A DNA stretch of 64,000 nucleotides, from the NCBI RefSeq assembly GCF_040518285.1, contig NZ_CP155449.1, positions 3,596,001 to 3,660,000 of the forward strand, given 5' to 3'. How positions within the stretch are numbered: position 1 is the stretch's first letter; every line of letters begins with the position of its first letter. Shown here piece after piece: positions 864-64,000 of this stretch. The position numbers and the translations under genes are program-made. The notes under the pieces are model-generated. The model did not search any database, was not told the DNA's origin, and saw only the letters and a list, made by a program, of their open reading frames with translations. This stretch comes from Knoellia sp. S7-12. GTDB taxonomy: Bacteria; Actinomycetota; Actinomycetes; Actinomycetales; Dermatophilaceae.

Positions 864-2294
864 TCAGCGCGGGGCGGTGAAGCGCTGGAGGAAGGCCGAC
901 AGCAGTCGAGCCGAGTCCTCTCGCGGGAGCACTTCGATGAGGGACAGGACCGTTGTGAGGTCGAGGTCGCCTCCCGCTCTGGCTCCGTCCGCAAGAGCCA
1001 CAGGATCGGGTATGCCGGTGTGAGACAACGCTTCCGGGCTCGGCAACGCGTGTCCCCGGACGGCGTCCGCGGCCTCGATGAGCGCGGGCACCAGCTCCCC
1101 CAGCAAGCCCTCGGTCACGGGAGTGATCGTCAGGTGAGCCGTGTGCGGGACCCGGGTCCCATCGGACTGCGTCATCGCCGGCTGTCCCTGCAGGACGAAC
1201 CCGCGTTCGGCGACGGCAGCCGTCCAGAGGAGCGGGTCGACCTGGTGCTCAACGGCCACGGCGTCGTCTGCCGCAACAGCGACGAGCGGCCCCTGCCGCT
1301 CCCCCAGAACCCGCAGCCCGTGGATCCCGCCGACTCCCTCGACCACGGCGGACGTGGCGGCGACGACGGGACGGGTGAGGGCGGCATACCCGCCTGTTCC
1401 GAGGGTCTGGACCACGGCCCAGGCCGCGGCCAACGACGTCGCTGACCGCGTGCCGAGCATCGTCGGGTTGACGACGGGGTAGCCGAGCCAGTCGGTGATG
1501 GCGAAGTAGCGCGCGAGGTCGAGCTCACTGTCGGCGAAGAGGAGCAGCGACGCACCCTTGGGGACGTAGCCGTACTTGTGGATGTCGGCGCTGATGCTGC
1601 TCACGCCGCGCCCGCGAAAGTCCCACTGCGGCAAGGGTTCTCCCCCGGCCTGCTCCCAGAACGGCAACACCCAGCCACCGACACAGGCATCCACGTGACA
1701 CGGGATCCCACGATCCGCGGCAGCACCCGCCACCTCGCTGACGGCATCGATGACCCCGTGCGGATAGGACGGTGCCGACACGACGACAAGGGCGACGTCC
1801 GGTCCGAGGGCCGCGACCATTGCCGCCGCCGGTGCGCGGCCCGATGTCACGTCCACGGGCAACACACTCACGTCGAGTCCGAAGTAGTGGGCGGCCTTGT
1901 GGAAGGCCGCATGCGTCGACGCGGACACCACAAGACGCGGCCTTCCCTCCCCGCCGCGCGCCACCCAGAGGTCGCGCGCAGCCTTCACGGCGAGCAGGCA
2001 GCTCTCAGTCCCACCTGAGGTGACCGATCCGGTGGCCGAAGGCCCGTGCAGCATCGTCCGGCCAAAGGCCACGAGGTCGGACTCCATCAGCGCCACTGAG
2101 GGGAAGGTCGTCGGGTCGAGTCCGTTCACCGGTTGGAGGAGCCGCATCGCCTGTGCCGCAACCTCATCGAGTTCGGGTCGACCATGGTCATAGACATAGG
2201 ACAGGACGCGTCCACCGTGCGTTGGGGCATCGTGCTCGCGATAGGCACGCAGCCTTCCCAGCACCTCGTCAGGGTGTGTTGACTCATGCTCCAT
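864..2294 (-). CDS. PLP-dependent decarboxylase / sphingosine-1-phosphate lyase-like enzyme
   Basis: A 476-residue group II PLP decarboxylase-fold protein. The segment SADIHKYGYVPKG carries the cofactor lysine (about Lys240), and SVTSGGTES upstream is the phosphate-binding loop typical of the sphingosine-1-phosphate lyase/aromatic decarboxylase family. The substrate cannot be told from sequence: a lyase acting on phospho-amines or an amino-acid decarboxylase are both possible. The ATG at 2294 (MEHESTHPDEV) is chosen because it gives the family's usual length and overlaps the end of the upstream symporter gene by 11 bases. That overlap suggests co-transcription, and so a substrate linked to the transporter. 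Confidence 0.8.
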   Translation of the reverse strand: MEHESTHPDEVLGRLRAYREHDAPTHGGRVLSYVYDHGRPELDEVAAQAMRLLQPVNGLDPTTFPSVALMESDLVAFGRTMLHGPSATGSVTSGGTESCLLAVKAARDLWVARGGEGRPRLVVSASTHAAFHKAAHYFGLDVSVLPVDVTSGRAPAAAMVAALGPDVALVVVSAPSYPHGVIDAVSEVAGAAADRGIPCHVDACVGGWVLPFWEQAGGEPLPQWDFRGRGVSSISADIHKYGYVPKGASLLLFADSELDLARYFAITDWLGYPVVNPTMLGTRSATSLAAAWAVVQTLGTGGYAALTRPVVAATSAVVEGVGGIHGLRVLGERQGPLVAVAADDAVAVEHQVDPLLWTAAVAERGFVLQGQPAMTQSDGTRVPHTAHLTITPVTEGLLGELVPALIEAADAVRGHALPSPEALSHTGIPDPVALADGARAGGDLDLTTVLSLIEVLPREDSARLLSAFLQRFTAPR

Positions 2295-3603
2295 CGAGGA
2301 GCACCTCCGGTTCGACATACTTGCGCAGTGCCACGATCGAGATGACGGCCAGGACCGCTGGCACCAGCGTGAAGGCGAGCCCCATGGCGACCTCGGCGCC
2401 GCGCGGCTGGGCCACGGGATCACCCGTGCTCGACACGAATCCACTCACGGCCAGCATGAGCAGCACGATGCCCGGGCCGAGGGCGAGACCCGCGGTCTCC
2501 AGTGCCGTCCACACCCCGCTCATCGCGCCACCCCGGGCCCGCCCTGCCTCCTCGATCACATCGGGAAGCATCGCCAGGGGGAAGAGCTGCATCCCGGCAT
2601 ACGCGACACCGCCGACCGCCAGAGCGAGGACCGACAGCCACGTCCACTCGAGCGAGAGGGCCGGGACCTGCACCACGCAGGCGAGCACGAAGAGCCAGGA
2701 CGACGCGAGGTATGCCGCCCGCTTGCCTCGCGCTGCTGCATAACGTTTCCAGGCCGGCATGACGACGAGCGCAGGCGCGACGACAGCCGCGAACAACACG
2801 CTCACCAGGGACTGGGAGCCAAGGAGATAGGTCGCGACATACTGCGCTGCCGCGAGGACGATGCCCGTGGCCAGCGCCTGGATGACGAAGACGACGAGCA
2901 GCGCACGGAAGCGCGGCAAGTCTCGGATGGCGTCCAATCCCGCACGCAGAGATGAAGATTCGGTGGTTCCACCCACGCGGCTCTCGTGCCCTCGCAGGCT
3001 GGCGACGGTCGCGAGCATGCCGACTGACAGCACGAGCGCCGAGACGACTGCCATGACCAGATAGCCGGAGCGACCGCCGCCAAGGGCGTCGCGAATGCCC
3101 GGGGCACCGGCACCGAACGCGAGGATCGCCAGCGCCAGCACCCCGACGCGCCACGCCATCATGCGGGTGCGCTCGGTGTAGTCGTTCGTGAGGTCGGCGG
3201 GCGCCGCGATGTAGGGCACCTGAAAGAAGCTGAATGAGGTTGTCGCGAGGACGAATGCGGCAACGACCCAGAGCGCGGCTGCGCCTGAGCCGAAGCCCGA
3301 CGGAACGGCGAACATCGCAATGAAGCCCACCGGCAGCGTCAACGCGCCGAGCAGCATGAGCCGGTGGCGTGACCCGTGGGCGGCCACCTCACGATCGCTG
3401 CGCGCCCCGATCGCCGGGTCGATGACGACGTCCCACACCTTGGGGACGAGGACGACGACGGCCGCCAGCGCCGCAGTGACTCCCAACGTGTCGGTGAGGT
3501 AGTAGGCGAGGACAAGGCCCGGCAGGGTCCCGAAGCCGCCCGTCCCAACACTGCCCGCGGCATATCCCGCTGTCTGGGCGCGGGTGAGGCGTTCGCGAGG
3601 CAT
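2284..3603 (-). CDS. MFS / GPH-family cation symporter
   Basis: A 439-residue inner-membrane protein with about 12 hydrophobic segments. The N-terminal half has YYLTDTLGV and then VVLVPKVWDVVIDPAIGARSD, the loop motif of the glycoside-pentoside-hexuronide:cation symporter group within the major facilitator superfamily. The ATG at 3603 (MPRERLTRAQ) starts just before the first membrane segment; the frame stays open much further upstream, but without membrane character. It overlaps the PLP decarboxylase by 11 bases, so an uptake-plus-decarboxylation pair is plausible. The substrate is unknown. Confidence 0.8.
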   Translation of the reverse strand: MPRERLTRAQTAGYAAGSVGTGGFGTLPGLVLAYYLTDTLGVTAALAAVVVLVPKVWDVVIDPAIGARSDREVAAHGSRHRLMLLGALTLPVGFIAMFAVPSGFGSGAAALWVVAAFVLATTSFSFFQVPYIAAPADLTNDYTERTRMMAWRVGVLALAILAFGAGAPGIRDALGGGRSGYLVMAVVSALVLSVGMLATVASLRGHESRVGGTTESSSLRAGLDAIRDLPRFRALLVVFVIQALATGIVLAAAQYVATYLLGSQSLVSVLFAAVVAPALVVMPAWKRYAAARGKRAAYLASSWLFVLACVVQVPALSLEWTWLSVLALAVGGVAYAGMQLFPLAMLPDVIEEAGRARGGAMSGVWTALETAGLALGPGIVLLMLAVSGFVSSTGDPVAQPRGAEVAMGLAFTLVPAVLAVISIVALRKYVEPEVLLDGA

Positions 3604-3649
3604 GCAACGCAGTATGTCCGGCGACGCCCCCGAAACCGACCGTTTCCGG

Positions 3650-5985: not shown

Positions 5986-6914
5986 CGCCCTGCCCCGTCC
6001 ACAACGGTGTCGGGCACCTGTCCGCGGTGCTCGACGCTGCCCTCGGTCAACGAGAGATAGGCGTCCTCAAGGGACCGTTCCACCTCTGCGAGGTGATGCA
6101 GGGGTATGCCGTGTGCGTGCGCGAGGTCTCCGACCTCGCTCGCGAGCAGTCCGCTCACCTCCACCTCCTCAGGGCCCGGGTGGGTCACGACGGCATCCGG
6201 CCCCAGTGCCCCCACCAGCGCGTCCACCCGTGGCGTGCGCACCCGCACCCGTTGACCGCCCAACCCACGGAGCATGCCCGCGATGTCCGTGTCGGCGATG
6301 AGGCGCCCACGACCGATGACGACGACCCGATCGGCGATGAGCTGCATCTCGCTCATGAGGTGGCTCGACACGAGGACCGTGCGCCCCTCGTCGGCAAACC
6401 CCCTGAACAGGGACCGGATCCACCGGACGCCATCGAGGTCGAGCCCGTTGACCGGCTCGTCGAAAAGCAGCACCGGCGGGTCGCCCAGCAGCGCTGCGGC
6501 GATGCCCAGCCGTTGTCGCATGCCCAACGAGTAGCCCTTGACCCGACGACCGGCCGCGTTCTCGAGCCCCACCTGCTCGATGACCTCTTCAACCCGGGCG
6601 AGCGGAATTCCGTTGCTGCGAGCGCCGATCCGCAGATGGCCACGGCCCGTTCGTCCAGGGTGCATCGCTCCGGCGTCAAGAAGCGCCCCCACCTCTCGCA
6701 ACGGTGCAGGGAAGTCGGTGTAGCGCCGCCCACCCACGGACGTCGCCCCGGCCGTCGGTCGGTCCAGCCCCAGGATCATCCGCATCGTCGTCGACTTCCC
6801 CGCACCGTTCGGCCCGAGGAAGCCGGTCACCTTCCCCGACTGCACGTCGAAGGTGAGGTCGTCGACCGCCCGCACACCGGCATACACCTTTGTCAGCCCG
6901 CTGACCCTGATCAT
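5982..6914 (-). CDS. ABC exporter ATP-binding protein
   Basis: A 310-residue DrrA/CcmA-type ATPase with Walker A GPNGAGKST, an ABC signature in the form YSLGMRQRLGIA and Walker B VLLFDEPVNGLD, followed by the H-loop VSSHLMSEM. The long C-terminal regulatory tail is normal for this group. The ATG at 6914 is preferred over upstream starts because the domain begins at once (MIRVSGLTKVYAG) and a purine-rich GGAGAG lies upstream. It forms an exporter with the overlapping permease gene. Confidence 0.88.
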   Translation of the reverse strand: MIRVSGLTKVYAGVRAVDDLTFDVQSGKVTGFLGPNGAGKSTTMRMILGLDRPTAGATSVGGRRYTDFPAPLREVGALLDAGAMHPGRTGRGHLRIGARSNGIPLARVEEVIEQVGLENAAGRRVKGYSLGMRQRLGIAAALLGDPPVLLFDEPVNGLDLDGVRWIRSLFRGFADEGRTVLVSSHLMSEMQLIADRVVVIGRGRLIADTDIAGMLRGLGGQRVRVRTPRVDALVGALGPDAVVTHPGPEEVEVSGLLASEVGDLAHAHGIPLHHLAEVERSLEDAYLSLTEGSVEHRGQVPDTVVDGAGR

Positions 6915-7093
6915 CCCTAGCACCCTCTCCACCGCCGAACCCGACGTCACGGACGCTAGGGGCTGCGGCCCGGCCAGTGGGGGTGAGACGTGTGAAGGTT
7001 CCGTGCAGATGCCGATGGCCGCGGCGCACAAGTTCGGCTGCGGTTCACCCAGAGGTATGCCGTCCGTTCCACTTTGGTGTGCAGGCTGCGGCC

Positions 7094-8380
7094 ATGACTT
7101 CCCGCCGATCCGTCCTGCCCGCGGTTGCGCTCGCAGGCGCTGCCCTCCTGGCCCCCACCATCGCCGCCGCCACACCTACAGGACCCGGCCGTCCCGTTCC
7201 GTCGCCCACGACTGCCAAGGTCCTCGGATTCTCGGTCCTGCCCACGCAGACCTACGTGCCCGGCAGTGAGCCTTCGGGGCACTGGACGACCGGCAACGCC
7301 GCTGTGCCTTCGCCCTACCCGGGCCAGCCGGTGCAGGGTTTCTCCGGCACGCACCGCAATGCCGACGGGTCCTACCTCGTGCTCAGCGACAACGGCTTCG
7401 GCGCCAAGACCAACAGCCAGGATGCGCTCCTCGCCCTCCATCGGATCCGGCCCAACACGAAGACGGGTGCCACGGCATACGAGACAACGCTTTTCACGTT
7501 CTCGGACCCGAAGCGGCTCATCCCGTGGCAGACGTGGCGTGACGGTGGCTGCGCGGCCGCGGCGTCGCTCCCGGCGGGCTACTCGTGTTCCACTCCCGAC
7601 CGCAAGCTCACGGGTTGGGACTTCGATCCCGAGTCGCTGCAGGTCGGCACGGACGGCACCTACTGGGTGGGTGAGGAGTTCGGGCCCTACCTGCTGCACT
7701 TCGACGCCAAGGGCCAGCTGTTGGAGGCTCCCATCGCGACTCCCGGGGTGAAGTCGCCGTCGAACCCCACGCTCGGCTCGGCGACGCCGAACCTCGCCAA
7801 TTCCAAGGGTTTCGAGGGCTTGGCGATCTCGCCCGACGGCCGCACGCTCTATCCGATGCTCGAGGGAGCGACCGCCGAGGACAAGGCCGCCAATCTCGCG
7901 AGCGACCTGCGCATCTATGAGGCGCCGATCGCCAAGGACGGCACGGCCGACTTCACCGGCGACTTCCGGCGCTACCGCATGGAGGACCCCGCCAACGCGC
8001 TCGGTGACTTCATTGCGATCAACAAGCACCAGTTCCTCGTCATTGAGCGTGACAACGGTCAAGGCCCGACCGCGGTGTTCAAGCGCATCTATCTCGTCGA
8101 CACCCGCGGTGTGGCGGCCGGCGGCTACGTCAAGAAGACCCTGCTCGTCGACCTCATGAACGTCCCCAACCCCTCTGGGGCAGGCGGATTTGGCGATCCG
8201 TTCACCTTCCCGTTCTTCACGATCGAGGACGTCGAGATCGTCGACAACCGCACCATCGCGGTGATGAACGACAACAACTTCCCCGCTGCTGGCGGTCGCA
8301 GCACCACCGAGCCCGACCGCAACGAGTTCGTCCTCATCCGCCTCGGCTCGGCACTCCAGGTGGACCACCGACTGCTCTGA
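7094..8380 (+). CDS. Secreted esterase-like phytase-family beta-propeller protein
   Basis: A 428-residue exported protein: signal peptide MTSRRSVLPAVALAGAALLA cut near IAAA, then a PF13449-type (esterase-like activity of phytase) domain. Recognisable parts are FSGTHRNADGSYLVLSDNGFG, DFDPESLQVG, WVGEEFGPYLLHFDAKG and FEGLAISPDGRTLYPMLEG, with conserved acidic residues that probably bind Ca2+. Family members are extracellular or wall-bound; reported phosphatase/esterase activity is limited. The ribosome site before 7094 is weak, and upstream codons do not extend the signal peptide sensibly. Confidence 0.8.
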   Translation: MTSRRSVLPAVALAGAALLAPTIAAATPTGPGRPVPSPTTAKVLGFSVLPTQTYVPGSEPSGHWTTGNAAVPSPYPGQPVQGFSGTHRNADGSYLVLSDNGFGAKTNSQDALLALHRIRPNTKTGATAYETTLFTFSDPKRLIPWQTWRDGGCAAAASLPAGYSCSTPDRKLTGWDFDPESLQVGTDGTYWVGEEFGPYLLHFDAKGQLLEAPIATPGVKSPSNPTLGSATPNLANSKGFEGLAISPDGRTLYPMLEGATAEDKAANLASDLRIYEAPIAKDGTADFTGDFRRYRMEDPANALGDFIAINKHQFLVIERDNGQGPTAVFKRIYLVDTRGVAAGGYVKKTLLVDLMNVPNPSGAGGFGDPFTFPFFTIEDVEIVDNRTIAVMNDNNFPAAGGRSTTEPDRNEFVLIRLGSALQVDHRLL

Positions 8381-8848: not shown

Positions 8849-9559
8849 TCAGGTCGCGACCAGATGCGCGACGACATAGAGCACCCCGAACGGGTCGCTC
8901 ACCTCACACGACTCAACCCGGTATGCCGTCCGCCCACCTGCCGCTGCCCTCACCCCTGCGTCTGCGGATGTGGTTGCTAGAGCAGCCGTATCCGCAGACG
9001 CAACGTCACCGGCGGAGCCCACAGCAGCGGCGAGCACCTGGAGTGGAGCGCGACCCGCGACGAGCAGGTCGGCGCAGAGCTCGGGATCGAGATCGAGGAG
9101 GCGCTCCAGGCCGCTCTCCCCCGCAGTGCGCACGGCATCCACGATCACGTCGTCGATGTCGGTTGCGCGGGGGTCGAGGTGGCCGGGGGCCTTCTCGGTG
9201 CGGCGGGCCGAACCGTCCGCGACGACGAGCAGCGTTGTCGCGCCCTGGGGTTCAAGTCCGCGCCCGAGGTCAACACACTCCTCGAGAGTGGCATCCCAGG
9301 CCACGGCGACATGCTCGACGTCGAAGTTCTCGTGGGTCGCCGCGAGCAGGTGGTCGGCGACCCGCAGACCCACTGCTGGCTTCGTGCTTCGCGCGTCCCG
9401 GTCGGTCGCGTGCACGACGACGACGTGATGGGCCGACGCGACGGCCTCACGGACCACAGTGATGCAGGACTCGATCAGACCGGGCGCGGCAGAAATGCGG
9501 CCCTGGTACTCCGGCAGCAGGAGCGGAGCACCGGGCACGATGACGACGTCGGTGATCAC
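8849..9559 (-). CDS. LigB-like (class III extradiol dioxygenase subunit B-like) domain protein
   Basis: A 236-residue protein starting at a GTG that overlaps the folP2 stop (GTGA, 9556-9559). The opening TDVVIVPGAPLLLPEYQGR and the later VVVVHATDRD and LLVVADGSARRTEKAPGHL resemble the LigB-fold proteins seen as conserved hypotheticals in actinobacteria (Rv2728c-like). The usual paired histidines of true dioxygenases are not obvious, so an enzymatic role is not claimed. It is the last gene of the fgd-gpgS-folP2 operon. Confidence 0.6.
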   Translation of the reverse strand: MITDVVIVPGAPLLLPEYQGRISAAPGLIESCITVVREAVASAHHVVVVHATDRDARSTKPAVGLRVADHLLAATHENFDVEHVAVAWDATLEECVDLGRGLEPQGATTLLVVADGSARRTEKAPGHLDPRATDIDDVIVDAVRTAGESGLERLLDLDPELCADLLVAGRAPLQVLAAAVGSAGDVASADTAALATTSADAGVRAAAGGRTAYRVESCEVSDPFGVLYVVAHLVAT

Positions 9560-10428: not shown

Positions 10429-11447
10429 CGGGAGTCCGCGCGGGTCCCACGCTCTGCGTGGGCCGGCATACCCACTGAAACGGCCGGAGGCCGCTCACCC
10501 GTGGCCACCGCGGTGACGTGCGGCTCGAAGCCGACGGCACCACGGGCGTACTGCGTGAGGTCGACCGTCGACCCAGCCGTCACGTCGTCGACCTCGCCAG
10601 GCACACGGCGACGGTCGGCGGCTGCGAGGACCTGGACTGCCATGAGACCGAGCGTGTCATGGCGGTGGTGGCGGTGTGTGCGCAGGCCGAGGTCGACCTG
10701 CGCGATCGCATCGACGCCGAAGCGGCCGGCCGTGTCGAGGACGGCCGCGATCTCGACGCCGTAGCCGACCGGCACGGCATAGGACTCAAAACTGGAGCGC
10801 CGGATCGCCCACTCGCCCGACAGCGGCTGCACGATGCCAGCCAGCTCGGGGCGGTGCAGGGCGAGCCAGGGGCGCGCGACGAGCTCGGTCACGCGGCCAC
10901 CGATCTCCTCCTCGCGCCCGGACGCGTCGATCATCGGCCGGTCATAGATGGCCTTGACGAGGTGGATGTCGTCGCGTGTGAGGAGAGGGCCCAGGAGACC
11001 GGTGACGAAGTGGGTGCCCCAGTCGACGAGGTCTGCATCGACGAACACGACAAGGTCGCCGCGCGTGACGAACTGCGACTTCCACAACGCCTCACCCTTG
11101 CCCGCGACGGAGCCGAGCTCGGGTCGGATCTCGGCGGCCGTGTGGACGCTCGCGCCTGCCTGCCGCGCCACGTCGCCTGTGGCATCGGTCGAGTCGGAGT
11201 CGATGACGACGACCTCGTCGACGAGCCCACCACCATCAGGCCGGACGAAGTCGGCGAGGATCCGCTCGACGACGGCAGCGACGGTCGCCTCTTCGTTCTT
11301 GGCGGGGATGACGACGGAGATCGCCTGATCGCCTTTGAGGCGCAGCAGGCCTTCGGGCGTCCAATCAGATGCCGAGTATGCCGGCCCACGCAGAGCGTGG
11401 GACCCGCGCTCGCCCGAGCCCGTCCCCTTGCCCACCGCTGTCGTCAC
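10425..11447 (-). CDS. gpgS: Glucosyl-3-phosphoglycerate synthase
   Basis: A 340-residue GT81-like glycosyltransferase that makes glucosyl-3-phosphoglycerate from a nucleotide glucose donor and 3-phosphoglycerate, the first step of methylglucose lipopolysaccharide or glucosylglycerate synthesis. Seen: SVVIPAKNEEATVAAVV, the metal-binding DADLV, KAIYDRP, LSGEWAIRR and YGVEIA, all GpgS hallmarks. The GTG at 11447 overlaps the enoyl-CoA hydratase stop by 4 bases. Both coding ends hold one arm of a perfect 34-base inverted repeat (10438-10471, 11376-11409), so the N-terminal GERGSHALRGPAYSA and C-terminal VGMPAHAERGTRADSR are repeat-encoded and probably not functional parts. Confidence 0.88.
   Translation of the reverse strand: MTTAVGKGTGSGERGSHALRGPAYSASDWTPEGLLRLKGDQAISVVIPAKNEEATVAAVVERILADFVRPDGGGLVDEVVVIDSDSTDATGDVARQAGASVHTAAEIRPELGSVAGKGEALWKSQFVTRGDLVVFVDADLVDWGTHFVTGLLGPLLTRDDIHLVKAIYDRPMIDASGREEEIGGRVTELVARPWLALHRPELAGIVQPLSGEWAIRRSSFESYAVPVGYGVEIAAVLDTAGRFGVDAIAQVDLGLRTHRHHRHDTLGLMAVQVLAAADRRRVPGEVDDVTAGSTVDLTQYARGAVGFEPHVTAVATGERPPAVSVGMPAHAERGTRADSR
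10438..10471 (+). repeat. 34-base inverted repeat, copy 1 (3' end of gpgS)
   Basis: Identical over 34 bases to the reverse complement of 11376-11409. It contains an internal hairpin CCCACGC-TCT-GCGTGGG and ends with the over-represented word GGCATAC. It lies inside the last codons of gpgS. Confidence 0.85.
11376..11409 (-). repeat. 34-base inverted repeat, copy 2 (5' end of gpgS)
   Basis: Reverse complement of 10438-10471 over all 34 bases, sited ~40-70 bases into the gpgS coding sequence. The two copies bracket the catalytic domain with inverted orientation, about 0.9 kb apart. Confidence 0.85.
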
Positions 11448-12729: not shown

Positions 12730-13763
12730 CAGGCAGCACCGTCCGTCGGGTCGGCGGGCACGAGCTCGCGCAGGCCGGGAACGACCTGCTCTGTGAAGGT
12801 CCGCAGGAACCGCTCCTGGTCATGGCCGGGGCCGTGGAAGACGAGGTGGTCGAAGCCGAGATCGGTGTACTCCTTGACGGCAGCGACCACGTCCTCGGGC
12901 TTCGAGGCGACGATCCAGCGCTTCGCGACCTGCTCGATGGGCAGCTCGTCGGCGGCCTTCTCCATCTCGGCAGGGCTGTGGATCGAGTGCTTCTGCTCGG
13001 GCGTGAGCGACAGCGGCGCCCAGAAGCGGGTGTTCTCGAGAGCCTGGTCGGCGTCCGGGTCCCACGACACCTTGATCTCGATCATCCGATCGATGTCGCT
13101 CGCGGGCCGGTCGGCCTTCCCCAGTCCCTGCGCCACGGCGGGCAGCAGCTTGTCGGCATACAGCTCGCGCCCCTTGCCGGAGGTGCAGATGAAACCGTCA
13201 CCGGACCGCCCGGCATACCGGGCCACGAGCGGACCGCCCGCGGCCACATACACAGGGATCGGCACGTCCGGACGGTCGAAGATCCGGGCGTCCTCGGTCC
13301 GGTAGTAGTCGCCCTCGAACGTCACGGACTCTTCGGTCCACAGCGCGCGCATGAGCTTGACCGACTCACGCAGCCGCGCGAAACGCTCCTTGAACTCGGG
13401 CCAGCCGCTCTCGGGGACCGACCCGACAGCAACCTCATTGAGCGCCTCACCTGTGCCCACGCCGAGCATGATGCGACCCGGTGCAAGGCAGCCCAGCGTC
13501 GCGAACGTCTGCGCGACAACGGCCGGGTTGTAGCGATAGGTCGGCGTCATCACCGACGTGCCGAGCAGCACTCGCTCGGTGCGCGCCGCGACCCACGACA
13601 ACCACGCGATGGAGTTCGGGGCGTGCCCACCTTCGAGCCGCCAGGGCTGGAAGTGGTCGGAGATCGTGACCGAGTCCAGTCCCAGCTCCTCGGCGAGGAC
13701 GGCGTATGCCGCGAGGTCGGATGGGGCGAACTGCTCCGCCGAAGCCTTGTAGCCGATGCGCAT
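12729..13763 (-). CDS. fgd: F420-dependent glucose-6-phosphate dehydrogenase
   Basis: A 344-residue luciferase-like (LLM) enzyme that oxidises glucose-6-phosphate to 6-phosphogluconolactone and reduces coenzyme F420. The match to mycobacterial FGD1 is strong: [64 protein letters not shown] and [15 protein letters not shown]. The ATG at 13763 is preferred because GGAGAGG sits 9 bases upstream; an in-frame ATG at 13772 touches that site. It heads a six-gene overlapping leftward operon and probably supplies F420H2 to the LLM oxidoreductases encoded elsewhere in the window. Confidence 0.92.
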
Positions 13764-22125: not shown

Positions 22126-22199
22126 GTGAGGTGAGGTGGGAGCGGGAGGGGGCGGGCGGCATACCCAGCAGTAGGCATGTGAAAAAGATTGCGAAGTAG

Positions 22200-49519: not shown

Positions 49520-50932
<1,413 letters not shown>

Positions 50933-51946: not shown

Positions 51947-51982
51947 ACCGGGTATGCCGCCCGGCTGGCTTGGTCGTGCGCC

Positions 51983-53545: not shown

Positions 53546-55126
53546 TCATCCGGAGGTGACGCCGGCGACCCCGGGTCGACCAGCCTCGACGAAGACGGAC
53601 GCGCGGGTGAAGGCGGTGCCACCGGGCTTGGTGACCACGGGCGTCACGACGTAGTCGCACTGCAGGTGTTCGCGTGTGAGGGTCACCCGCTGGTAGCCGC
53701 GCTGCTTGTTGTGGAACTTCATGTGCGGGTTCTCGTCGAGCCACACCTTGCCGAGCGCGTCCTGATCGGATCCGTCACCGCCAGAGGAGATCGAGGTGCC
53801 GAGGAACTCGGTGCCCACGGTCGCCGACGACGCGTCCTTGAAGTCGAGCTTGAGGTCGGCCGCGACGCTCCGGTGCGCGTCACCGGTGAGGACGATGAAG
53901 TTGTCGACGTCGCGCTCGTGCACACCGTCGAAGAGCCGCTGGCGCGCTGCGGCATAGCCGTCCCACGGATCGCGCGAATACTGCTCTGGCACGCCGGCTG
54001 CGTGATCAGCCTGCATGACGAAGACCTGGTTGGCCAGGATGTTCCACGTCGCTCGAGACGAGCCGAGCCCACCGAGGAGCCACTGCTCCTGCTCGGCACC
54101 AAGCATCGTCCGGTTCTCGTCCCAACGCTCGGGGCAGTCGTTGACGCACGCCGCTAGCTGGTCAGTGCGCCACCGCCTCGTGTCGAGGACGTTGAGCTGC
54201 GCCAGACCACCGAAGGTCAGTCGACGGAAGACCTGCATCTCGGGTCCCGCGGGCATCGAGGACTTCCGCAGCGGGAGGTTCTCGTAGTAGGCCTTGTATG
54301 CCGCGGCGCGCCTTGCGCGGAACACGGCCGGGTCCTGGTCGGGCTCGGTGTCGGGCTGCGAGATGTCGCCGGCCCAATCGTTCTCGACCTCGTGGTCGTC
54401 GGGGGTGACGACCCAGGGCGCTGAAGCGTGGGCCGCCTGGAGCGAGGGGTCGAGCTTGTACTGGCTGTAGCGGATCCGGTAGTCCGCGAGCGTGAAGGTC
54501 TCGTGGGCAGGCAGATGTGCCCGGCCCAGGGTTCCGACGTTGCCGCCCTCATAGATGTAGTCCCCGAGGTGAACGATGAGGTCAAGGTCGTCCTTGGCCA
54601 TGTGGTCGAAGGCCGGGAACCAGCCCTCATAGAAGTTCTGACAGCTCGCGAACGCGAAGCGCATCGAGGCCAAGGCAGTGCCGAGGGCCGGAGCGGTTCG
54701 GGTCCGGCCGACCGGGCTGAGGTCGTTGCCGACGCGGAAGCGGTACCAGTACTCGCGGTCGGGACGCAGCCCCGAGACCTCGGCGTGAACCGAGTGATTC
54801 CACTGTGGGGTCGCCACCTCGGCGCCCGCCCGGGCGATCCTGCGGAAGCCGGGGTCCTCGGCAACCCGCCACTGGACCGGAACGGGACGGGACGGCATAC
54901 CCCCACGTCCGTCGACGGCAAGGGGCTCGGGAGCGAGCCGGGTCCACAGCACCACGCCGTCCGGCGTCGGGTCGCCGGAGCCGACCCCGAGCGCAAAGGG
55001 AGACTCGATCGGCGCGGCCGCACTCAGTGCAGGCGTTGCCACGGTGACGGCGGCCGCGACGGCGGCCCCACCCCCGAGTCCGAGCAGGTGGCGGCGGTCA
55101 AGGGTCGGAGGCATGAACGAAGGCAT
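53546..55126 (-). CDS. phoD: Secreted alkaline phosphatase D
   Basis: A 526-residue Tat-exported phosphodiesterase/phosphatase. The signal has DRRHLLGLGGG then a hydrophobic run ending near SAAAP. Metal-site segments: FAFASCQNFYEGWFPAFDHM, IVHLGDYIYEGG, VTPDDHEVENDW, ANQVFVMQ, VLTGDAHRS. No clear PHO box was found upstream. ATG 55126 contains a copy of the GGCATAC word; ATG 55114 is an alternative. Confidence 0.92.
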   Translation of the reverse strand: MPSFMPPTLDRRHLLGLGGGAAVAAAVTVATPALSAAAPIESPFALGVGSGDPTPDGVVLWTRLAPEPLAVDGRGGMPSRPVPVQWRVAEDPGFRRIARAGAEVATPQWNHSVHAEVSGLRPDREYWYRFRVGNDLSPVGRTRTAPALGTALASMRFAFASCQNFYEGWFPAFDHMAKDDLDLIVHLGDYIYEGGNVGTLGRAHLPAHETFTLADYRIRYSQYKLDPSLQAAHASAPWVVTPDDHEVENDWAGDISQPDTEPDQDPAVFRARRAAAYKAYYENLPLRKSSMPAGPEMQVFRRLTFGGLAQLNVLDTRRWRTDQLAACVNDCPERWDENRTMLGAEQEQWLLGGLGSSRATWNILANQVFVMQADHAAGVPEQYSRDPWDGYAAARQRLFDGVHERDVDNFIVLTGDAHRSVAADLKLDFKDASSATVGTEFLGTSISSGGDGSDQDALGKVWLDENPHMKFHNKQRGYQRVTLTREHLQCDYVVTPVVTKPGGTAFTRASVFVEAGRPGVAGVTSG

Positions 55127-55208
55127 ACGGTCCAGACAATCGCGCTGCCGTGGGACAGCAGGCAAACGCCATCTGGCCACCTCGCGACCATCGGTCAACG
55201 CGCAAGGG

Positions 55209-56426
55209 CTAGCTGAGCTCCGCAAGGCGCCGAGAGAGGTGAGCCCGTTCGATCTCGTTGTCACACAGGGTGATTGACCTGCTGATCTGCTCTCTTGCCT
55301 CAACCCGGTCGCCCGAGCGGGCGAGGAGCTCACCGCGGACTGCCGGGAGTCGGTGCCCGGGCAGGTCCACACCGTCGAGCAGCGCCAGCCCGGCCCGAGG
55401 CCCGTCCGCCTCGGCGACGGCAACGGCTCGGGCGACCCGCACGGCTGGCGACGGAGACACCCGCTCGAGCACGGCATACAGGCTGGCGATGCGGTCCCAA
55501 CGGGTCGCTTCGGGTGACACCGCAGTCGCGTGTTCAGCCGCAATGCGTGCCTGCAGCCGAAAGCTCTCGGACAGCGGCGTCGCCCCGGGAACGGTCGCGT
55601 CCAGCAGGGCCAGCGCCTCGGAGATCTCGTCGTGGTGCCAGCGACCACGGTCCTGGTCCGGGAGGAGCACGAGGGACCCGTCTGGAGCGACCCGGGCGTC
55701 ACGTCGCGAATGCTGCAGGGTCATGAGAGCGATGAGATGGGCGAGGGTGTCAGTCGGGCGCAGCGCGTGAGTGACGCGAGCGAGGCGGATCGCCTCACCG
55801 GCGAGTTCCACGCGCAGAAGGTCTGGCCCGCTCCCGGGCGCATAGCCAGCCGTGAATGCGAGGTATGCCGTGTGGGCCACCGTGTCGAGACGGGCCGGCA
55901 GCGCGTCAACGGCAGGGACGGAGAACGGGATGCCCGCTGTGACGATCTTCCTCTTGGCGCGAGTGATTCGGGCGGCCATGGTGGGCTCGGGCACGAGGAA
56001 GAGTCGGGCGACGTCGGCGGTCGAGATGCCCATGACGAGGCGAAGTGACAGCGCGGCCGCGCCCTCGGCCGGGAGGGCGGGGTGGGCACACATGAGGACA
56101 AGGCGCAGGAGGTCATCGTCGACGACCGAGCCGTCATCGACCATGACACCCTCCGGCGGCTGACGAGCGGCCTCGACGAGAAGCAGCGGCTCCTTGCGGG
56201 CGGCCATGGACTCGGCCCGGAGTCGGTCGAGGATGCGGCGCCTCGCTGCCGTGACGAGCCAGGCGCTGGGGTTGTCGGGCTCGCCGTCCTCTGGCCACCT
56301 GGTGTGAGCTGTCGCAACTGCCTCCGCGAGGGCGTCCTCAACGAGATCGAGCCGTCGGAACTGCGCGAGGAGCAGGGCCACGAGGCGGCCCCACTCCTCG
56401 CGCACGACGCGCTCGAGTGGGGTCAT
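55209..56426 (-). CDS. ECF RNA polymerase sigma factor, ECF42 type (DUF6596 C-terminal)
   Basis: A 405-residue sigma factor. Region 2 lies at RLVALLLAQFRRLDLVEDALAEAVATAHTRWP; region 4 at LSLRLVMGISTADVARLFLVPEPTMAARITRAKRKI; a ~220-residue TPR-like C-terminal extension follows, which is needed for activity in ECF42 proteins. The group lacks a partner anti-sigma factor and is found with DGPF proteins, as here (four genes). Start overlaps the upstream gene (ATGA, 56423-56426). Confidence 0.88.
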   Translation of the reverse strand: MTPLERVVREEWGRLVALLLAQFRRLDLVEDALAEAVATAHTRWPEDGEPDNPSAWLVTAARRRILDRLRAESMAARKEPLLLVEAARQPPEGVMVDDGSVVDDDLLRLVLMCAHPALPAEGAAALSLRLVMGISTADVARLFLVPEPTMAARITRAKRKIVTAGIPFSVPAVDALPARLDTVAHTAYLAFTAGYAPGSGPDLLRVELAGEAIRLARVTHALRPTDTLAHLIALMTLQHSRRDARVAPDGSLVLLPDQDRGRWHHDEISEALALLDATVPGATPLSESFRLQARIAAEHATAVSPEATRWDRIASLYAVLERVSPSPAVRVARAVAVAEADGPRAGLALLDGVDLPGHRLPAVRGELLARSGDRVEAREQISRSITLCDNEIERAHLSRRLAELS

Positions 56427-57171: not shown

Positions 57172-57530
57172 GACTCGCGGTCTTCCTGGGTGTTGACCGG
57201 GCGCACCTCGATCCCTTCCCCGATCTCGGCAAGCAGCTGACAGCAATCGAGGAGGTCGTCGACGTTCTCGGTCTGCACCTGGTAGAAACCGCCCACCTGC
57301 TCGGCCGACTCCGCGAACGGGCCGTCGGTGACTGGCCCCCCTCCGACGGGGATGGACCTGGCCGTGGCCCGGCCCTGCAACTCGGCACCGCCGGTGACAG
57401 TGTGACCACGCTTTGCGAGCTCTTCGTCGAAACGGGCGTAGACGGCATACCCGGCGGTGCGTTCTTCTTCAGTCATCGACGTCCACCAACGGTCGGGGTC
57501 TCCGACGATGAGCACGACATATTCCTTCAT
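57168..57530 (-). CDS. DGPF (YCII-related) domain protein
   Basis: A 120-residue paralogue: MKEYVVLIVGDPDRWWTSMTEEE, core PVTDGPFAESAEQVGGFYQVQ. RBS AAGGAG is upstream of ATG 57530. It lies 15 bases after the first gene of the operon. Confidence 0.85.
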   Translation of the reverse strand: MKEYVVLIVGDPDRWWTSMTEEERTAGYAVYARFDEELAKRGHTVTGGAELQGRATARSIPVGGGPVTDGPFAESAEQVGGFYQVQTENVDDLLDCCQLLAEIGEGIEVRPVNTQEDRES

Positions 57531-57989: not shown

Positions 57990-59999
57990 CTAGCGCGCCA
58001 ATGCGTCTGGGAGGCGTTCGGCGTGGACGACGGTGAGGTCGGAGACGGCGCGGGTGAGGACGACATAGAGACGGCGTAGCCCGGTCCGCTCGTCGGGCTC
58101 GGCGGCGGCGATCTCTGCCGGTTCGAGGACGAGGACGTGGTCGAACTCGAGGCCCTTGGCGACCGTTGCCGGCACGAGGTCGATCTGGTGGTCCACGTCG
58201 CCATGAGTCGCGCCGAGGGTGCCGTGCTCGAGATCTGCCTCGCTCAGCGCGCGCGACACTCCAGCGACCCGAGCGTCGGGCACGATGACACCGATGCTGC
58301 CCTCGAGCGCGCTCAGCCGCTCGACCTCCGCCACCGTCGCGCGCACAAGATCTGCCGGCCGCACGGGCACGAGGTCGAGCCGACCCGGGTTGTCTCGCAC
58401 CGACTCCGGCGCGGCGAGACCGGGTGCTGCCTGTGGCAGCAACCGGGCAGCGAACTCGATGACACTGGCTGGCACGCGGAACCCGCGGCGCAGCTCGGAC
58501 ACCACCCCGTCAGGTTTGCCGAGGTGCTCGAGGCTCTCGGCCCACGACGCCGTCGACCACGGAGTCGTGCCCTGGGCGATGTCGCCCAGGACCGTGGCGG
58601 CCCCGGTCGAACAGCGCCGACCCACGGCCCGAAGCTGCATCGGCGACAGGTCCTGCGCCTCATCCAACACGACATGACCCAGGCTCGGGGTGCGGTTGAG
58701 CAGGTCACCGAGTTCGTCGAGCAGCACCGTGTCGGCAAGCGTCCACTTCGTTGATCCGGCTGTGCGAGAAGGCTTTTCCCAGAGCAGCCGCCTTTGTTCG
58801 TCGCCGCTCAGCACCCCGTCGGCCGCGGCCGCGAGCGCCTGCGCGTCCGACAGCAGCCGATGCAACAGCGCAGGTGCTTCGACCTTGGGCCAGAGCGACC
58901 CGGCATACGCCTTGACGGGAGCGCTGCGTGCAACCGCGTCCTGGACGCGATCATCGGGGTACTCCCCCAGTGCTTCCATCTTCATGAGGACGGCGTGGGC
59001 AAGGCGCTGCGGGAGCAGCTGCCGCGCCGCGTCGTAGCGGATCTCGCGCCCGGCGAGTCCGTCGACGAGCGGTGCGATGTCGTATGCCGCGACGCGCCAC
59101 CTGCGTGACCCGCGCGGCACGACCATCGCCTCGGTCGGCGGGACGAGGTGTGACCACACGGCTCGGTGCAACACCACGGCCATCCGGGCGTCGCCCTTGA
59201 GGCGGGCCGCTTCGGTCGGCTCGGTCGCGCGAATCGGCACCGACCCGGTCAGTGCCTCGATGCTCGTGTGCCGAACCTCGACCTCGCCGAGAGCGGGCAG
59301 GACTGCGCCGATGTGGTCGAGGAAGGCGTCGTTGGGACCGATGACCAGGACACCGCTTCGGCTCAGTCGTTGGCGAAACGCATAGAGCAGCCATGCCGCG
59401 CGGTGCAGACCGACAGCGGTCTTGCCCGTGCCGGGCGCGCCCTGGATGCAGACCGTGGTCATCGCATCGACGCGGACGAGGGCGTCCTGCTCGGGCTGGA
59501 TCGTGGCGACGATGTCGCGCATCGGGCCGACACGGGGGCGCTCGATCTCGGAGGCGAGGATCTGCGAGCGCGCCTCTGGCTCAGCCACATCGAGCAGGTG
59601 CTCGTCCTCCATGGCCGTGATCGAACCTCGGACATAGCCGAAGCGTCGACGCAACCGCACTCCCATCGGCTCGGTGTGGGAAGCCCGATAGAACGTCGTC
59701 GACACCGGCGCTCGCCAGTCGATGACGAGCGGGTCGCCGGCGTCATCGGTGACATGGCGGCGACCGATGTACCAGCGCTCGTCGGTGTCGAGGTCGACGC
59801 GACCGAAGAAGAGTGCCGTCGTCGGGTCGTCCTCGAGCGACCGAGCGCGCCGCCAAAGCGTTTCGGCGAGCGCCTCGGACGAGACGGCGTTGCCACCCTG
59901 GATGTCGAGCGCGAGGGTGCGTTCGCGCATGCTGGCCAGCTCGGCGCGGGCGTGTGCGAGGTGGTTCTGTTCTTCCGTGAGCTCCTCGTTCATGGGCAT
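57990..59999 (-). CDS. HelD-family RNA polymerase-associated ATPase, second copy
   Basis: A 669-residue paralogue of the 47233 gene. N-terminal coiled coil (EEQNHLAHARAELASMRER), VIDWRAPVSTTFYRAS, Walker A GAPGTGKTAVGLHRAAWLLY (~187), Walker B VVLDEAQDLSPMQLRAV (~445), C-terminal ATP-site RRLYVVLTRA. Could recycle RNA polymerase and protect it from rifamycin-type stalling; no rifamycin-associated element was seen upstream. Start 59999 (MPMNEELTEE) or 59993. Confidence 0.85.
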   Translation of the reverse strand: MPMNEELTEEQNHLAHARAELASMRERTLALDIQGGNAVSSEALAETLWRRARSLEDDPTTALFFGRVDLDTDERWYIGRRHVTDDAGDPLVIDWRAPVSTTFYRASHTEPMGVRLRRRFGYVRGSITAMEDEHLLDVAEPEARSQILASEIERPRVGPMRDIVATIQPEQDALVRVDAMTTVCIQGAPGTGKTAVGLHRAAWLLYAFRQRLSRSGVLVIGPNDAFLDHIGAVLPALGEVEVRHTSIEALTGSVPIRATEPTEAARLKGDARMAVVLHRAVWSHLVPPTEAMVVPRGSRRWRVAAYDIAPLVDGLAGREIRYDAARQLLPQRLAHAVLMKMEALGEYPDDRVQDAVARSAPVKAYAGSLWPKVEAPALLHRLLSDAQALAAAADGVLSGDEQRRLLWEKPSRTAGSTKWTLADTVLLDELGDLLNRTPSLGHVVLDEAQDLSPMQLRAVGRRCSTGAATVLGDIAQGTTPWSTASWAESLEHLGKPDGVVSELRRGFRVPASVIEFAARLLPQAAPGLAAPESVRDNPGRLDLVPVRPADLVRATVAEVERLSALEGSIGVIVPDARVAGVSRALSEADLEHGTLGATHGDVDHQIDLVPATVAKGLEFDHVLVLEPAEIAAAEPDERTGLRRLYVVLTRAVSDLTVVHAERLPDALAR

Positions 60000-60048: not shown

Positions 60049-60690
60049 CTAGGCGATCGGCTGCTCGAACACGTGCCGTCGCACCCAGGCGTGCATCGCG
60101 ATGGCGGCCGCCGCTCCGGCGTTGATCGAGCGGGTCGAGCCGAACTGCTCGATGTGGAGCGTGGCCTCGCACTCGGCGCGCATGTCCGCGGACAGCCCCG
60201 GCCCTTCCTGCCCGAAGACGAGCATCGCGTTCCTCGGCAGGTCGTAGGTCTCGAGCGGGCGACTTCCGGGCAGGTTGTCGATCCCGATGAGGCGTATGCC
60301 GTTCGCACCGGCCCACGTGGCCAGGTCACCGGGCGTGGGGTGGTGGTGCTCGTGCTGATAGCGATCAGTGACCATCGCACCGCGACGGTTCCAACGGCGC
60401 CGTCCGACGATGTGGAAGGCGGCAGCTCCCATGGCATTGGCGGTGCGCACGACCGAACCGATGTTGAAGTCGTGCTCCCAGTTCTCGATGGCGATGTGGA
60501 AGTCGTGGCGACGCGTGTCGAGGTCGGCGACGATCGCGTCGTGCCGCCAGTAGCGATAGGCGTCGACAACATTGCGCCGATCACCCTCACGCAGGAGCTC
60601 CGGGTCGAATCGTTCGTCGACGGGCCACTGCCCCTCCCACGGGCCGACGCCGACGGCCTCTCCGGGAATCCGCTCGCGCTCGTCACTCAC
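60049..60690 (-). CDS. TrmH/SpoU-family RNA methyltransferase
   Basis: A 213-residue SPOUT methyltransferase: DFHIAIENWEHDFNIGSVVRTANAMGA (motif 1), NAMLVFGQEGPGLS (motif 2), and GSTRSINAGAAAAIAMHAW (motif 3, trefoil knot). Target RNA unknown (tRNA or rRNA 2'-O). GTG 60690; divergent from the DinB gene with a gap of 19 bases. Confidence 0.87.
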   Translation of the reverse strand: MSDERERIPGEAVGVGPWEGQWPVDERFDPELLREGDRRNVVDAYRYWRHDAIVADLDTRRHDFHIAIENWEHDFNIGSVVRTANAMGAAAFHIVGRRRWNRRGAMVTDRYQHEHHHPTPGDLATWAGANGIRLIGIDNLPGSRPLETYDLPRNAMLVFGQEGPGLSADMRAECEATLHIEQFGSTRSINAGAAAAIAMHAWVRRHVFEQPIA

Positions 60691-60709
60691 GCGGCCAACA
60701 ATGTCAGGT

Positions 60710-61258
60710 ATGCCTGACGAGACGTACGACGACATGTGGGTGGCCCCCGATGAGGACCCCCGCGAGAGCGACAGCCCGCCGATGGACGAGCGCGACAACT
60801 ACGCGGCATACCTGCGTCACAGGCGACAGACGCTGGAACTGAAGTGCGAAGGGCTGACCCCCGAGCAGATGGCGCAGCGCTCGGTTCCACCGTCCACGAT
60901 GTCGCTGCTCGGCCTCGTGCGTCACCTCGCCGAGGTCGAACGCGGCTGGTGGCGCCGGACTCTGGCCGGCGAGCAGGCCGAGCGACTCTGGGGGCCGTCA
61001 CGCGCCGACGCAGACTTCAACAACATCGTGGGCGAGCAGGGCGCCGTCGACGAGGCGTGGTCAGCCTGGCGTGCAGAGGTGACCTACGCCGAGGCATGGC
61101 TCGCGGCTCATGACGACATGGGTGAGGTCATCGACGCAGGCCACCACGGCGAGCTCAACGTCCGGGACGTCGTCGTCCACCTCATCGAGGAGTACGCCCA
61201 GCACATCGGCCACGCCGACCTCCTGCGCGAGTGCATCGACGGACGCACCGGCCAGTGA
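60710..61258 (+). CDS. DinB/DUF664-family protein
   Basis: A 182-residue four-helix protein: RDNYAAYLRHRRQTLELKCEGLTPEQM, LLGLVRHLAEVERGWWRRTL, and C-terminal VRDVVVHLIEEYAQHIGHADLLRE with three His that can bind metal. Many are mycothiol- or bacillithiol-dependent transferases; function here inferred. ATG 60710 or 60701 in frame. ATG 60710 lies in a GTATGCC word. Confidence 0.82.
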   Translation: MPDETYDDMWVAPDEDPRESDSPPMDERDNYAAYLRHRRQTLELKCEGLTPEQMAQRSVPPSTMSLLGLVRHLAEVERGWWRRTLAGEQAERLWGPSRADADFNNIVGEQGAVDEAWSAWRAEVTYAEAWLAAHDDMGEVIDAGHHGELNVRDVVVHLIEEYAQHIGHADLLRECIDGRTGQ

Positions 61259-61294: not shown

Positions 61295-61301
61295 TGCGCC
61301 C

Positions 61302-63387: not shown

Positions 63388-63406
63388 CCAGAGGCGCGGG
63401 TCGGCT

Positions 63407-64000
63407 TCAGTTGCGCGGCAGGGAGATCAAACCGACCCTGTATGCCGCCGTGACCGCGGCCGTGCGGTCCGTCACCTCGAGCTTCGTGAAGATCCGCAAC
63501 AGGTGGGTCTTGACGGTCGCCTCACCGATGAAGAGCTCCCGGCCCACCTCACCGTTCGACAGGCCTCGGGCCACGGCGCGCAGGACGTCGAGTTCGCGCG
63601 GGGTGAGCTCGACTCGGGCCGGAACGCGCAGTCGCTCGGCGAGCCGGGCCGCCACCGGGGGCGCCAGCACCGTTTCACCCAGTGCCGCTCGTCGGATCGC
63701 GTCGGCGAGGACGGTCGGCGCCGTGTCCTTGAGCAGGTAGCCCCTTGCGCCTGACTCGACCGCACGCACGATGTCCGCGTCGGTGTCATAGGTCGTGAGG
63801 ACGAGCACCTCGGGTGGGTTGGGTTGGGCACGCAGACGAGCGGTGGCCTCGGCGCCGTCCATCACCGGCATACGCAGATCCATGAGGACCACATCGGGAG
63901 CGAGCTTCGGAGAGAGGGCGAGTGCCTCGGCACCGTTGGCCGCCTCCCCGACGACGTCGAGGTCCTCGATCTCACTGAGCAACGCAACCATGCCGGCCCG
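63407..64000 (-). CDS. NarL/FixJ-type response regulator, N-terminus cut off by window edge
   Basis: Partial gene lacking its 5' end. The receiver part has PDVVLMDLRMPVMDG (phospho-acceptor Asp), VLTTYDTDADIVRAVESGARGYLLKD and the LuxR HTH RVELTPRELDVLRAVARGLSNGEVGRELFIGEATVKTHLLRIFTKLEVTDR. The reading frame continues to the edge with RAG before MVALLSEIEDLDV, so its start lies beyond the window. Partner kinase not seen. Confidence 0.9.
   Translation of the reverse strand, partial: RAGMVALLSEIEDLDVVGEAANGAEALALSPKLAPDVVLMDLRMPVMDGAEATARLRAQPNPPEVLVLTTYDTDADIVRAVESGARGYLLKDTAPTVLADAIRRAALGETVLAPPVAARLAERLRVPARVELTPRELDVLRAVARGLSNGEVGRELFIGEATVKTHLLRIFTKLEVTDRTAAVTAAYRVGLISLPRN

Follow-up and report, generated by a model that had tools for sequence, protein, structure and literature searches.

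A conserved and hyper-abundant octamer in Knoellia and its family as a candidate DNA uptake sequence

Why should one short word recur about once per kilobase in bacterial DNA? The question is raised by a stretch of 64,000 nucleotides from Knoellia sp. S7-12 (contig NZ_CP155449.1, positions 3,596,001 to 3,660,000; hereafter the window), in which an exact scan finds the heptamer GGCATAC 58 times, 32 times on the forward and 26 times on the reverse strand. In 56 cases it forms the octamer CGGCATAC, the other two being AGGCATAC, where the leading C is missing. The features described below, taken as a whole, match the published description of DNA uptake sequences (DUS) and uptake signal sequences (USS), the tags by which a few Gram-negative bacteria select DNA of their own kind for uptake. 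They make it probable that CGGCATAC is such a sequence, a mark of self DNA that the natural-transformation machinery would recognise. Uptake is proved by none of them singly, and each competing explanation fails on part of the set. An earlier reading of the letters alone (the sequence-only reading) had arrived by eye at the same 58 and 56 copies, at the same balance of orientation and at a G+C content of about 68%, which was measured as 68.3%; those of its positions that were compared were correct within a few bases.

Under an order-3 Markov model CGGCATAC is the most over-represented octamer of the window, with 56 copies observed against 2.7 expected, an expectation that is itself inflated by the word. 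The hexamer GCATAC does not occur in the window outside GGCATAC, and the majority of the one-base neighbours of CGGCATAC stand near their expectation, some being raised (CGGCCTAC, 8 observed against 2.9 expected; CGGCATAG, 7 against 3.4; CGGCATAT, 5 against 0.6). The abundance is not a local oddity of the window, a possibility left by the sequence-only reading and ruled out by two further counts. The complete genome (G000, one contig of 4,163,720 bases) carries 2,805 copies, 1399 forward and 1406 reverse, compared with 79 (46+33) for the reversed word, and a 464-kb sample made of the window and 20 stretches of 20 kb spread along the contig carries 292 copies where 12.8 would be expected. The genomic number falls inside the range of hundreds to several thousands of copies given for DUS and USS genomes in PMC5031613.

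High copy number, far above expectation, also holds against a codon-aware null. In the same 464 kb, 205 coding copies were counted, compared with a mean of 23 and a maximum of 29 over 20 within-gene synonymous shuffles, so that codon or dipeptide bias is rejected as far as synonymous choice goes. As the sequence-only reading had reported for the window, copies occur on both strands, in all frames and also in gaps: the six phases are all occupied (sense 12/61/15, antisense 13/13/91), and the word is denser outside called genes (87 copies in 88 kb) than inside them (205 in 375 kb), a split that is approximate because the genes were called by a simple open reading frame (ORF) picker that relies on the G+C content of the three codon positions. 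Of the 56 copies in the window, 44 lie inside called coding sequences.

Conservation in relatives, a check proposed by the sequence-only reading, was assessed for 20 words between positions 26000 and 45900 of the window by alignment to eight congeners at 80–85% identity. The exact octamer was kept in 110 of 144 site-genome cells (76%), compared with 2289 of 8761 (26%) for permuted control octamers, the cells not being independent since the genomes share ancestry. Identity averaged 0.94 over the core bases of the aligned sites and 0.81 over their flanks, with the fifth base the least kept of the core (0.81). Four sites were retained in all eight relatives, and three were kept in 1/8, 2/8 and 0/7. 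The copies of the window, as located by exact scan, are the following:

1010..1017, reverse, CGGCATAC
1382..1389, forward, CGGCATAC
2595..2602, forward, CGGCATAC
2710..2717, reverse, CGGCATAC
6104..6111, reverse, CGGCATAC
6878..6885, forward, CGGCATAC
7055..7062, reverse, CGGCATAC
7473..7480, forward, CGGCATAC
8921..8928, reverse, CGGCATAC
10464..10471, forward, CGGCATAC, within a 34-bp inverted repeat shared with the copy at 11376
11376..11383, reverse, CGGCATAC, within a 34-bp inverted repeat shared with the copy at 10464
13154..13161, forward, CGGCATAC, with 13211 the sole direct close pair of the sample
13211..13218, forward, CGGCATAC, with 13154 the sole direct close pair of the sample
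13704..13711, reverse, CGGCATAC
17213..17220, forward, CGGCATAC
17331..17338, reverse, CGGCATAC
18236..18243, forward, CGGCATAC
19747..19754, forward, CGGCATAC
20483..20490, reverse, CGGCATAC
21644..21651, reverse, CGGCATAC
22157..22164, forward, CGGCATAC
26563..26570, forward, CGGCATAC, kept in 7/7 aligned relatives
26914..26921, forward, CGGCATAC, kept in 6/7 aligned relatives
27395..27402, reverse, CGGCATAC, kept in 7/7 aligned relatives
27746..27753, forward, CGGCATAC, kept in 6/7 aligned relatives
30509..30516, reverse, CGGCATAC, inverted close pair with 30565, within a called gene
30565..30572, forward, CGGCATAC, inverted close pair with 30509, within a called gene
32681..32688, reverse, CGGCATAC, also aligned to relatives
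34250..34257, forward, CGGCATAC, kept in 8/8 relatives
35507..35514, reverse, CGGCATAC, kept in 1/8 relatives
35819..35826, reverse, CGGCATAC, kept in 8/8 relatives
36160..36167, forward, CGGCATAC, kept in 8/8 relatives
38820..38827, forward, CGGCATAC, kept in 2/8 relatives
39521..39528, reverse, CGGCATAC, also aligned to relatives
40548..40555, forward, CGGCATAC, also aligned to relatives
42177..42184, forward, CGGCATAC, kept in 8/8 relatives
42663..42670, reverse, CGGCATAC, kept in 7/8 relatives
43945..43952, forward, CGGCATAC, also aligned to relatives
44117..44124, forward, CGGCATAC, kept in 0/7 aligned relatives
44754..44761, reverse, CGGCATAC, kept in 7/8 relatives
45880..45887, forward, CGGCATAC, kept in 6/6 aligned relatives
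47454..47461, reverse, CGGCATAC
48026..48033, forward, CGGCATAC
50227..50234, forward, CGGCATAC
51952..51959, reverse, CGGCATAC
54296..54303, reverse, CGGCATAC
54893..54900, forward, CGGCATAC
55121..55128, forward, AGGCATAC, without the leading C (first of two)
55472..55479, forward, CGGCATAC
55863..55870, reverse, CGGCATAC
57443..57450, forward, CGGCATAC
58901..58908, forward, CGGCATAC
59082..59089, reverse, CGGCATAC
60294..60301, reverse, CGGCATAC
60708..60715, reverse, AGGCATAC, without the leading C (second of two)
60804..60811, forward, CGGCATAC
63440..63447, reverse, CGGCATAC
63866..63873, forward, CGGCATAC

The 34-bp inverted repeat is perfect (10438–10471 and an inverted copy from 11376, about 900 bp apart) and carries one CGGCATAC in each arm.

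Orientation was also examined relative to replication. The contig starts with dnaA, dnaN and a RecF/SMC-type gene, and the terminus was assumed to lie halfway. Among the 292 sampled sites, 134 are leading and 158 lagging (P 0.18), which means no leading-strand excess and no replichore skew of the type seen in FtsK-orienting polar sequences (KOPS) or architecture-imparting sequences (AIMS). A replication polarity signal, one of the functions floated by the sequence-only reading, is thereby not supported. Balanced orientation, as in DUS and USS, is found both in these sites and genome-wide. Outside three sparse stretches the spacing is near random (coefficient of variation 0.99), with a slight evenness when counted over 4–5 kb, where the index of dispersion was 0.72 and 0.68 (P about 0.01). 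For the window by itself it was 0.11 at 4 kb, a value picked out post hoc.

Mobile DNA is present in each of the three stretches that, of the 20 sampled, are poorest in the word (L004, L010 and L011). In L004 it is a conjugative element that carries genes for an integrase, an M23/SLT peptidase and VirB6/TrbL-like and TraG/TraD-like proteins; in L010 it is an island in which ABC-3C, kinase and CHAT genes accompany an integrase gene; and in L011 it is a region with a serine recombinase, where three further ORFs that were searched gave no family match. In the delimited mobile parts of these stretches 0, 1 and 0 words were found, compared with 12.4, 11.2 and 8.0 expected (P 4e-6, 1.6e-4 and 3e-4), the scarcity in recently acquired DNA that characterizes DUS and USS; the three islands were inspected because they were sparse, and L002, L003, L012 and L020 (0.40–0.45 words/kb) were left out. 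The L010 island (L010:5113-19812, about 1.905–1.920 Mb on G000:C1) is possibly a defence island; its ABC-3C protein (CTD6) is joined by an AAA protein, besides the protein kinase, integrase and CHAT-domain protein already named.

Another feature concerns neighbouring words less than 60 bp apart (close pairs). In the S7-12 sample 19 such pairs are inverted and one is direct, compared with 39 inverted and 38 direct for nine control words of similar frequency. Fifteen of the 19 are not wholly within a called gene, and 14 of these stand between tandem or convergent genes; the 15 fold at -22.7 kcal/mol, compared with -8.6 for shuffled letters, and T runs of six occur at the pairs L006:10807 and L007:17429. 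DUS and USS are often paired in inverted orientation as terminators (PMC12616744), and the S7-12 pairs match the arrangement described there, their own role as terminators being a prediction. Among 18 loci from the family, 10 close pairs are inverted and one is direct.

The flanks of the 292 sites are also biased, from about -26 to +21, relative to two control sets (327 one-off words and 35,955 permuted words). Upstream, the preferred bases are G (-26, 0.59), A (-11, 0.37), C (-2, 0.52) and A (-1, 0.41), and downstream T is preferred at +12, +15, +17 and +21 (0.27–0.35). The bias persists in the 60 unpaired copies outside called genes (G -26 0.62, A -11 0.52, T +12 0.40, T +15 0.43), where +21 is not among the strong positions. 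Conservation of the flanks between species was rejected: at orthologous sites they are conserved no better than coding DNA with its three-base rhythm, and the outer motif is therefore a statistical preference and not a fixed sequence.

How far the word extends beyond Knoellia was surveyed in 186 genomes of 53 genera. The family so defined is probably GTDB Dermatophilaceae and wider than Intrasporangiaceae, where NCBI places Knoellia, because it includes a genome with the ComEC of Dermacoccus abyssi. Over the best segment, the S7-12 ComEC shares 76% identity with its Knoellia remsis counterpart, and the ComEC row of the congener G002 is identical to the K. remsis row. CGGCATAC is enriched in all nine Knoellia genomes (1971–3277 copies) and in many other genera of the family, weakly in some (G059, 189 copies against 41 of the control word), and is at background elsewhere, as in the 12 genomes of g2 (18–35 copies). 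Losses are found within genera: G141 has 50 copies while the other 30 of the 31 g68 genomes have at least 394, G118 has 19 (genus mates 1062 and 3681) and G065 has 37 (genus mates 1251–1660). In 22 genomes from other families of the order the word numbers 2–167 copies; the maximum, in G054 (167), is exceeded there by the control word (184), and G045 stands furthest above its control (88 against 29). Around ComEC, the word is present in Knoellia remsis, Phycicoccus elongatus, Terrabacter, Humibacillus, Intrasporangium oryzae and Ornithinimicrobium, is thinner in Arsenicicoccus (6 in 22 kb), and was not seen in the ComEC loci of Janibacter indicus, Intrasporangium flavum and one uncultured Phycicoccus. 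On a ComEC tree of 44 rows, 39 of them distinct owing to overlap between named and unnamed rows (3 of 47 rows were dropped for a missing reading-frame motif), word state changes 6 times, compared with 12.7 in shuffles.

Dialects, another property of DUS and USS, are found within the family. G033 uses CGGCATCC (239 copies in 240 kb against 25.7 expected; 152 coding copies against 29.8 after shuffling), with 15 inverted and 4 direct close pairs and an index of dispersion of 0.64. G011 uses CG[GTC]CATAC, in which T and C are also accepted at position 3, and G023 has a far longer motif, read by eye as about GGGAGCSAGCYCAGCGGCATACGRC, which at 26 unpaired sites has A -11, T +12 and T +15 in common with S7-12 and whose close pairs are 3 inverted and 0 direct. 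Weaker excesses were noted in G009 (CGGCATCC, 19 against 7.2), G018 (CGGCGTCC, 75 coding against 38 shuffled) and G026 (CGGCGTAC, 13 against 4.3), and in G030, G031, G121 and G118 the codon null is exceeded two- to fourfold by CGNCGTAC or GGCGTACG. Two loci of metagenome-assembled genomes, L071 and L079, have 14 and 8 copies of CGGCATTC alongside 8 and 18 of CGGCATAC, a possible mixed or intermediate dialect.

Beyond these variants, g63 and g67 stand alone in being enriched for an unrelated octamer, CCCCTTCG (CGAAGGGG), with 1198–2588 copies in 16 of 16 g63 genomes and 2589–3180 in 3 of 3 g67 genomes, for example in loci L209-L210 and L217-L218; none of the remaining 167 genomes of the family exceeds 396 copies. 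The 19 genomes rich in CCCCTTCG contain 7–41 copies of CGGCATAC, so the two words are mutually exclusive. In G123 (g67) CCCCTTCG has 33 coding copies, compared with 5.7 after shuffling, and its close pairs are 3 inverted and 1 direct. g63 is probably Janibacter, because J. indicus has 6 copies of CCCCTTCG in 12.4 kb; Arsenicicoccus has 5 in 22 kb.

The machinery that an uptake sequence would serve is encoded in the S7-12 genome, which has ComEA (SLBB and HHH_3 domains), the adjoining ComEC with a four-base overlap, DprA and TadE-like proteins. A search for ComEC succeeded in all 40 genomes to which it was applied, 36 of which belong to the family, and one for DprA in 30 of 30. Profiles were run on 59 family genomes, 30 word-bearing and 29 word-less or weak, the latter including G033 (dialect) and G097, G101 and G123 (second word): the ComEA helix-hairpin-helix domain was detected in all 59, and TadE in 58, the exception being the word-less G014. 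In the proposed mechanism, the word in double-stranded DNA would be bound by a receptor at the cell surface, which may belong to a Tad pilus or lie next to one; a Tad-associated receptor is suggested because no type IVa pilin was detected. Word-bearing fragments would then be drawn to ComEA, and the DNA would enter as a single strand via ComEC and recombine. Preferred uptake of such fragments would spread and maintain the word, through molecular drive and selection, and a change or loss of the receptor in a lineage would entail a change or loss of the word.

The suggestion of a DNA uptake sequence made by the sequence-only reading is supported by the number of copies and their balance between strands, by their conservation and their scarcity in mobile DNA, and by inverted hairpin pairs, dialects and the presence of competence genes. 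Several observations weigh against it. The weakest point is that the machinery does not separate word states: competence genes are as common in word-less genomes as in word-bearing ones, with G141, G118 and G065, all without the word, carrying the ComEA domain, TadE and DprA, and therefore presence and absence do not tie the word to competence. The competence genes for which the sequence-only reading proposed a check (comEC, comEA) are thus present, and no association with the word was found. No receptor for the word was found. Type IVa pilins, the kind of receptor known for DUS, were searched for and went undetected in 57 of the 59 family genomes, S7-12 included, and thus a ComP-type receptor is not expected there; N_methyl (PF07963, a 27-position model) was detected in two, G013 and G032. 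Natural transformation in the family is unreported among the matches listed, as far as their titles and the starts of their abstracts go.

Other adverse points concern the word itself. The outer motif of S7-12 (A -11, T +12, T +15) is absent from G011, and G033 favours other positions (-9 C, -5 C, -1 C, +8 G), which slightly lowers confidence in the uptake reading. The close pairs of G011 run in the opposite direction (1 inverted and 3 direct, a small sample), two of the ten inverted pairs of the family loci (L081 and L088) look like a single orthologous coding site, and T runs of at least three within 22 bases accompany 8 of the 15 S7-12 pairs and 2 of 12 G033 pairs, both counts being without a chance control. 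Dialects and the second word account for only some word-less genera, many of which show no evident replacement in small samples: no word clearly stood out in 28–80 kb of G010, G014, G016, G017, G021, G022, G026, G058, G065, G086, G127, G141 and G187, whose top words resemble ordinary codon words by appearance.

Finally, other Actinomycetes also have enriched words. CGNCGTAC is strongly enriched in some other families, and both it (Kribbella loci L109 and L091; 94 against a codon null of 21.3, about fourfold) and GCGTACGC (L119) exceed the codon null in the loci tested. The close pairs of CGNCGTAC are 14 inverted and 17 direct; word enrichment in the class, therefore, need not mean uptake, and it is not claimed that CGNCGTAC belongs to the same system. 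For these words, which make up another class of enriched word in Actinomycetes, it was further observed that CGNCGTAC has 12,732 copies in the 5.3-Mb genome G357 (control 788), that its G form is one base away from CGGCATAC, that it is depleted in the sampled stretches of S7-12 (49 coding copies against 96.6 after synonymous shuffling), and that GCGTACGC has 34 copies in 22 kb of Hamadaea (L119).

Set beside the known systems, CGGCATAC resembles the DUS of Neisseriaceae in its hundreds to thousands of copies on both strands, its inverted terminator-like pairs and its dialects following phylogeny (PMC12616744 and PMC5031613). It differs in that the words are unrelated and the host is Gram-positive, in that the DUS is a contiguous 10–12-mer while the S7-12 word is an octamer with loose flanks (G023 being an exception), and in its receptor, which would not be of the kind of the minor pilin ComP, given that a type IVa minor pilin went undetected. 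The USS of Pasteurellaceae is discontinuous, with a 9-nt core and two less conserved parts (PMC12616744), and the short core with weaker outer positions (A -11, T +12, +15 and +17) is comparable; USS copies also lie inside and between genes without orientation bias (PMC1939737). Here too the words are unrelated, and the present host is GC-rich, has TadE-like proteins instead of type IVa pilins, and belongs to a family in which the outer positions vary among dialects. For the machinery, the closest parallel is Micrococcus luteus, whose transformation requires Flp/Tad pili, ComEA and ComEC (PMC6370729 and PMC8467076) and whose actinobacterial gene set is similar, S7-12 having adjacent ComEA and ComEC and TadE-like proteins; in the main text of the M. 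luteus paper the terms "uptake sequence" and "specificity" are absent.

Among the competing explanations, the one that survives best, itself improbable, is a recombination signal of the Chi type: AdnAB, or some other helicase-nuclease that resects ends, would read it on one strand, and it would protect self and mark foreign DNA. AdnAB is expected in Actinobacteria, and an octameric word that is conserved and scarce in mobile DNA suits such a signal. Chi is strand-biased in known cases, whereas the leading-strand excess is absent here, and to our knowledge flank bias from -26 to +21, inverted hairpin pairs and word switching within a family are not features of Chi. Nor do HIP1 (highly iterated palindrome) or Chi, as far as we know, form inverted terminator pairs. 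HIP1 and Chi are other classes of hyper-abundant short words (PMC4390886), which speaks for a Chi-like role as well. The RecBCD version of this explanation was rejected, no RecC being found in the S7-12 genome, and RecC occurs in 10 of 30 word-bearing compared with 17 of 29 word-less or weak genomes (P 0.07), the wrong direction. Among four g52 genomes searched, RecC was seen only in the word-less G065.

Somewhat less likely again is a binding site for a chromosomal protein (nucleoid organiser, segregation or repair factor), present once per kilobase or two. Such a site would agree with the asymmetric flank bias, the conservation of position and the slightly even spacing, but strand skew is absent, the losses within genera (G141, G118 and G065) and the unrelated word of g63 and g67 are hard to reconcile with a housekeeping protein, and hairpin-forming pairs fit terminators better than a duplex binder. 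A still fainter prospect is the target of an orphan methyltransferase, enriched by methylation-dependent mismatch repair as proposed for cyanobacterial HIP1, which sets a precedent for hyper-abundant methyltransferase targets and for word swaps between related genomes (PMC4390886); HIP words are palindromic, however, and CGGCATAC is not, and it is not obvious how enrichment through repair would lead to biased flanks or to inverted hairpin pairs. Bias in codons, dipeptides or composition can be dismissed almost entirely: antisense 2 and sense 1 are indeed the commonest phases, as coding tolerance would produce, but the excess over synonymous shuffles is ninefold, density peaks outside called genes and counts are low in the 22 genomes from other families of the order.

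The chances are somewhat better than even that with CGGCATAC sequence-specific DNA uptake has arisen independently for a third time, for the first time in a Gram-positive (actinobacterial) lineage and for the first time via a Tad/Flp pilus, with dialects across the family and, at least once, complete replacement of the word (CGGCATAC by CCCCTTCG in g63 and g67). Among the matches listed, which cover open-licence literature in part, there is no report of CGGCATAC or of an uptake sequence in Gram-positive bacteria, and the claim of novelty rests also on a statement in PMC12616744; if uptake is confirmed, no tag of this kind would apparently have been known from Gram-positive bacteria before. A third case, in monoderm Actinobacteria and with another type of pilus, would mean that self-tagged transformation arose repeatedly, and the replacement of CGGCATAC by CCCCTTCG would mean that receptor specificity was swapped in evolution. 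The dialects and the exclusive second word make the co-evolution of receptor and word directly testable. Such a case would also offer a handle on the DNA receptor of Tad-based competence and bear on gene exchange within a large environmental family, and the word, added to constructs, could help in actinobacteria that are hard to transform.

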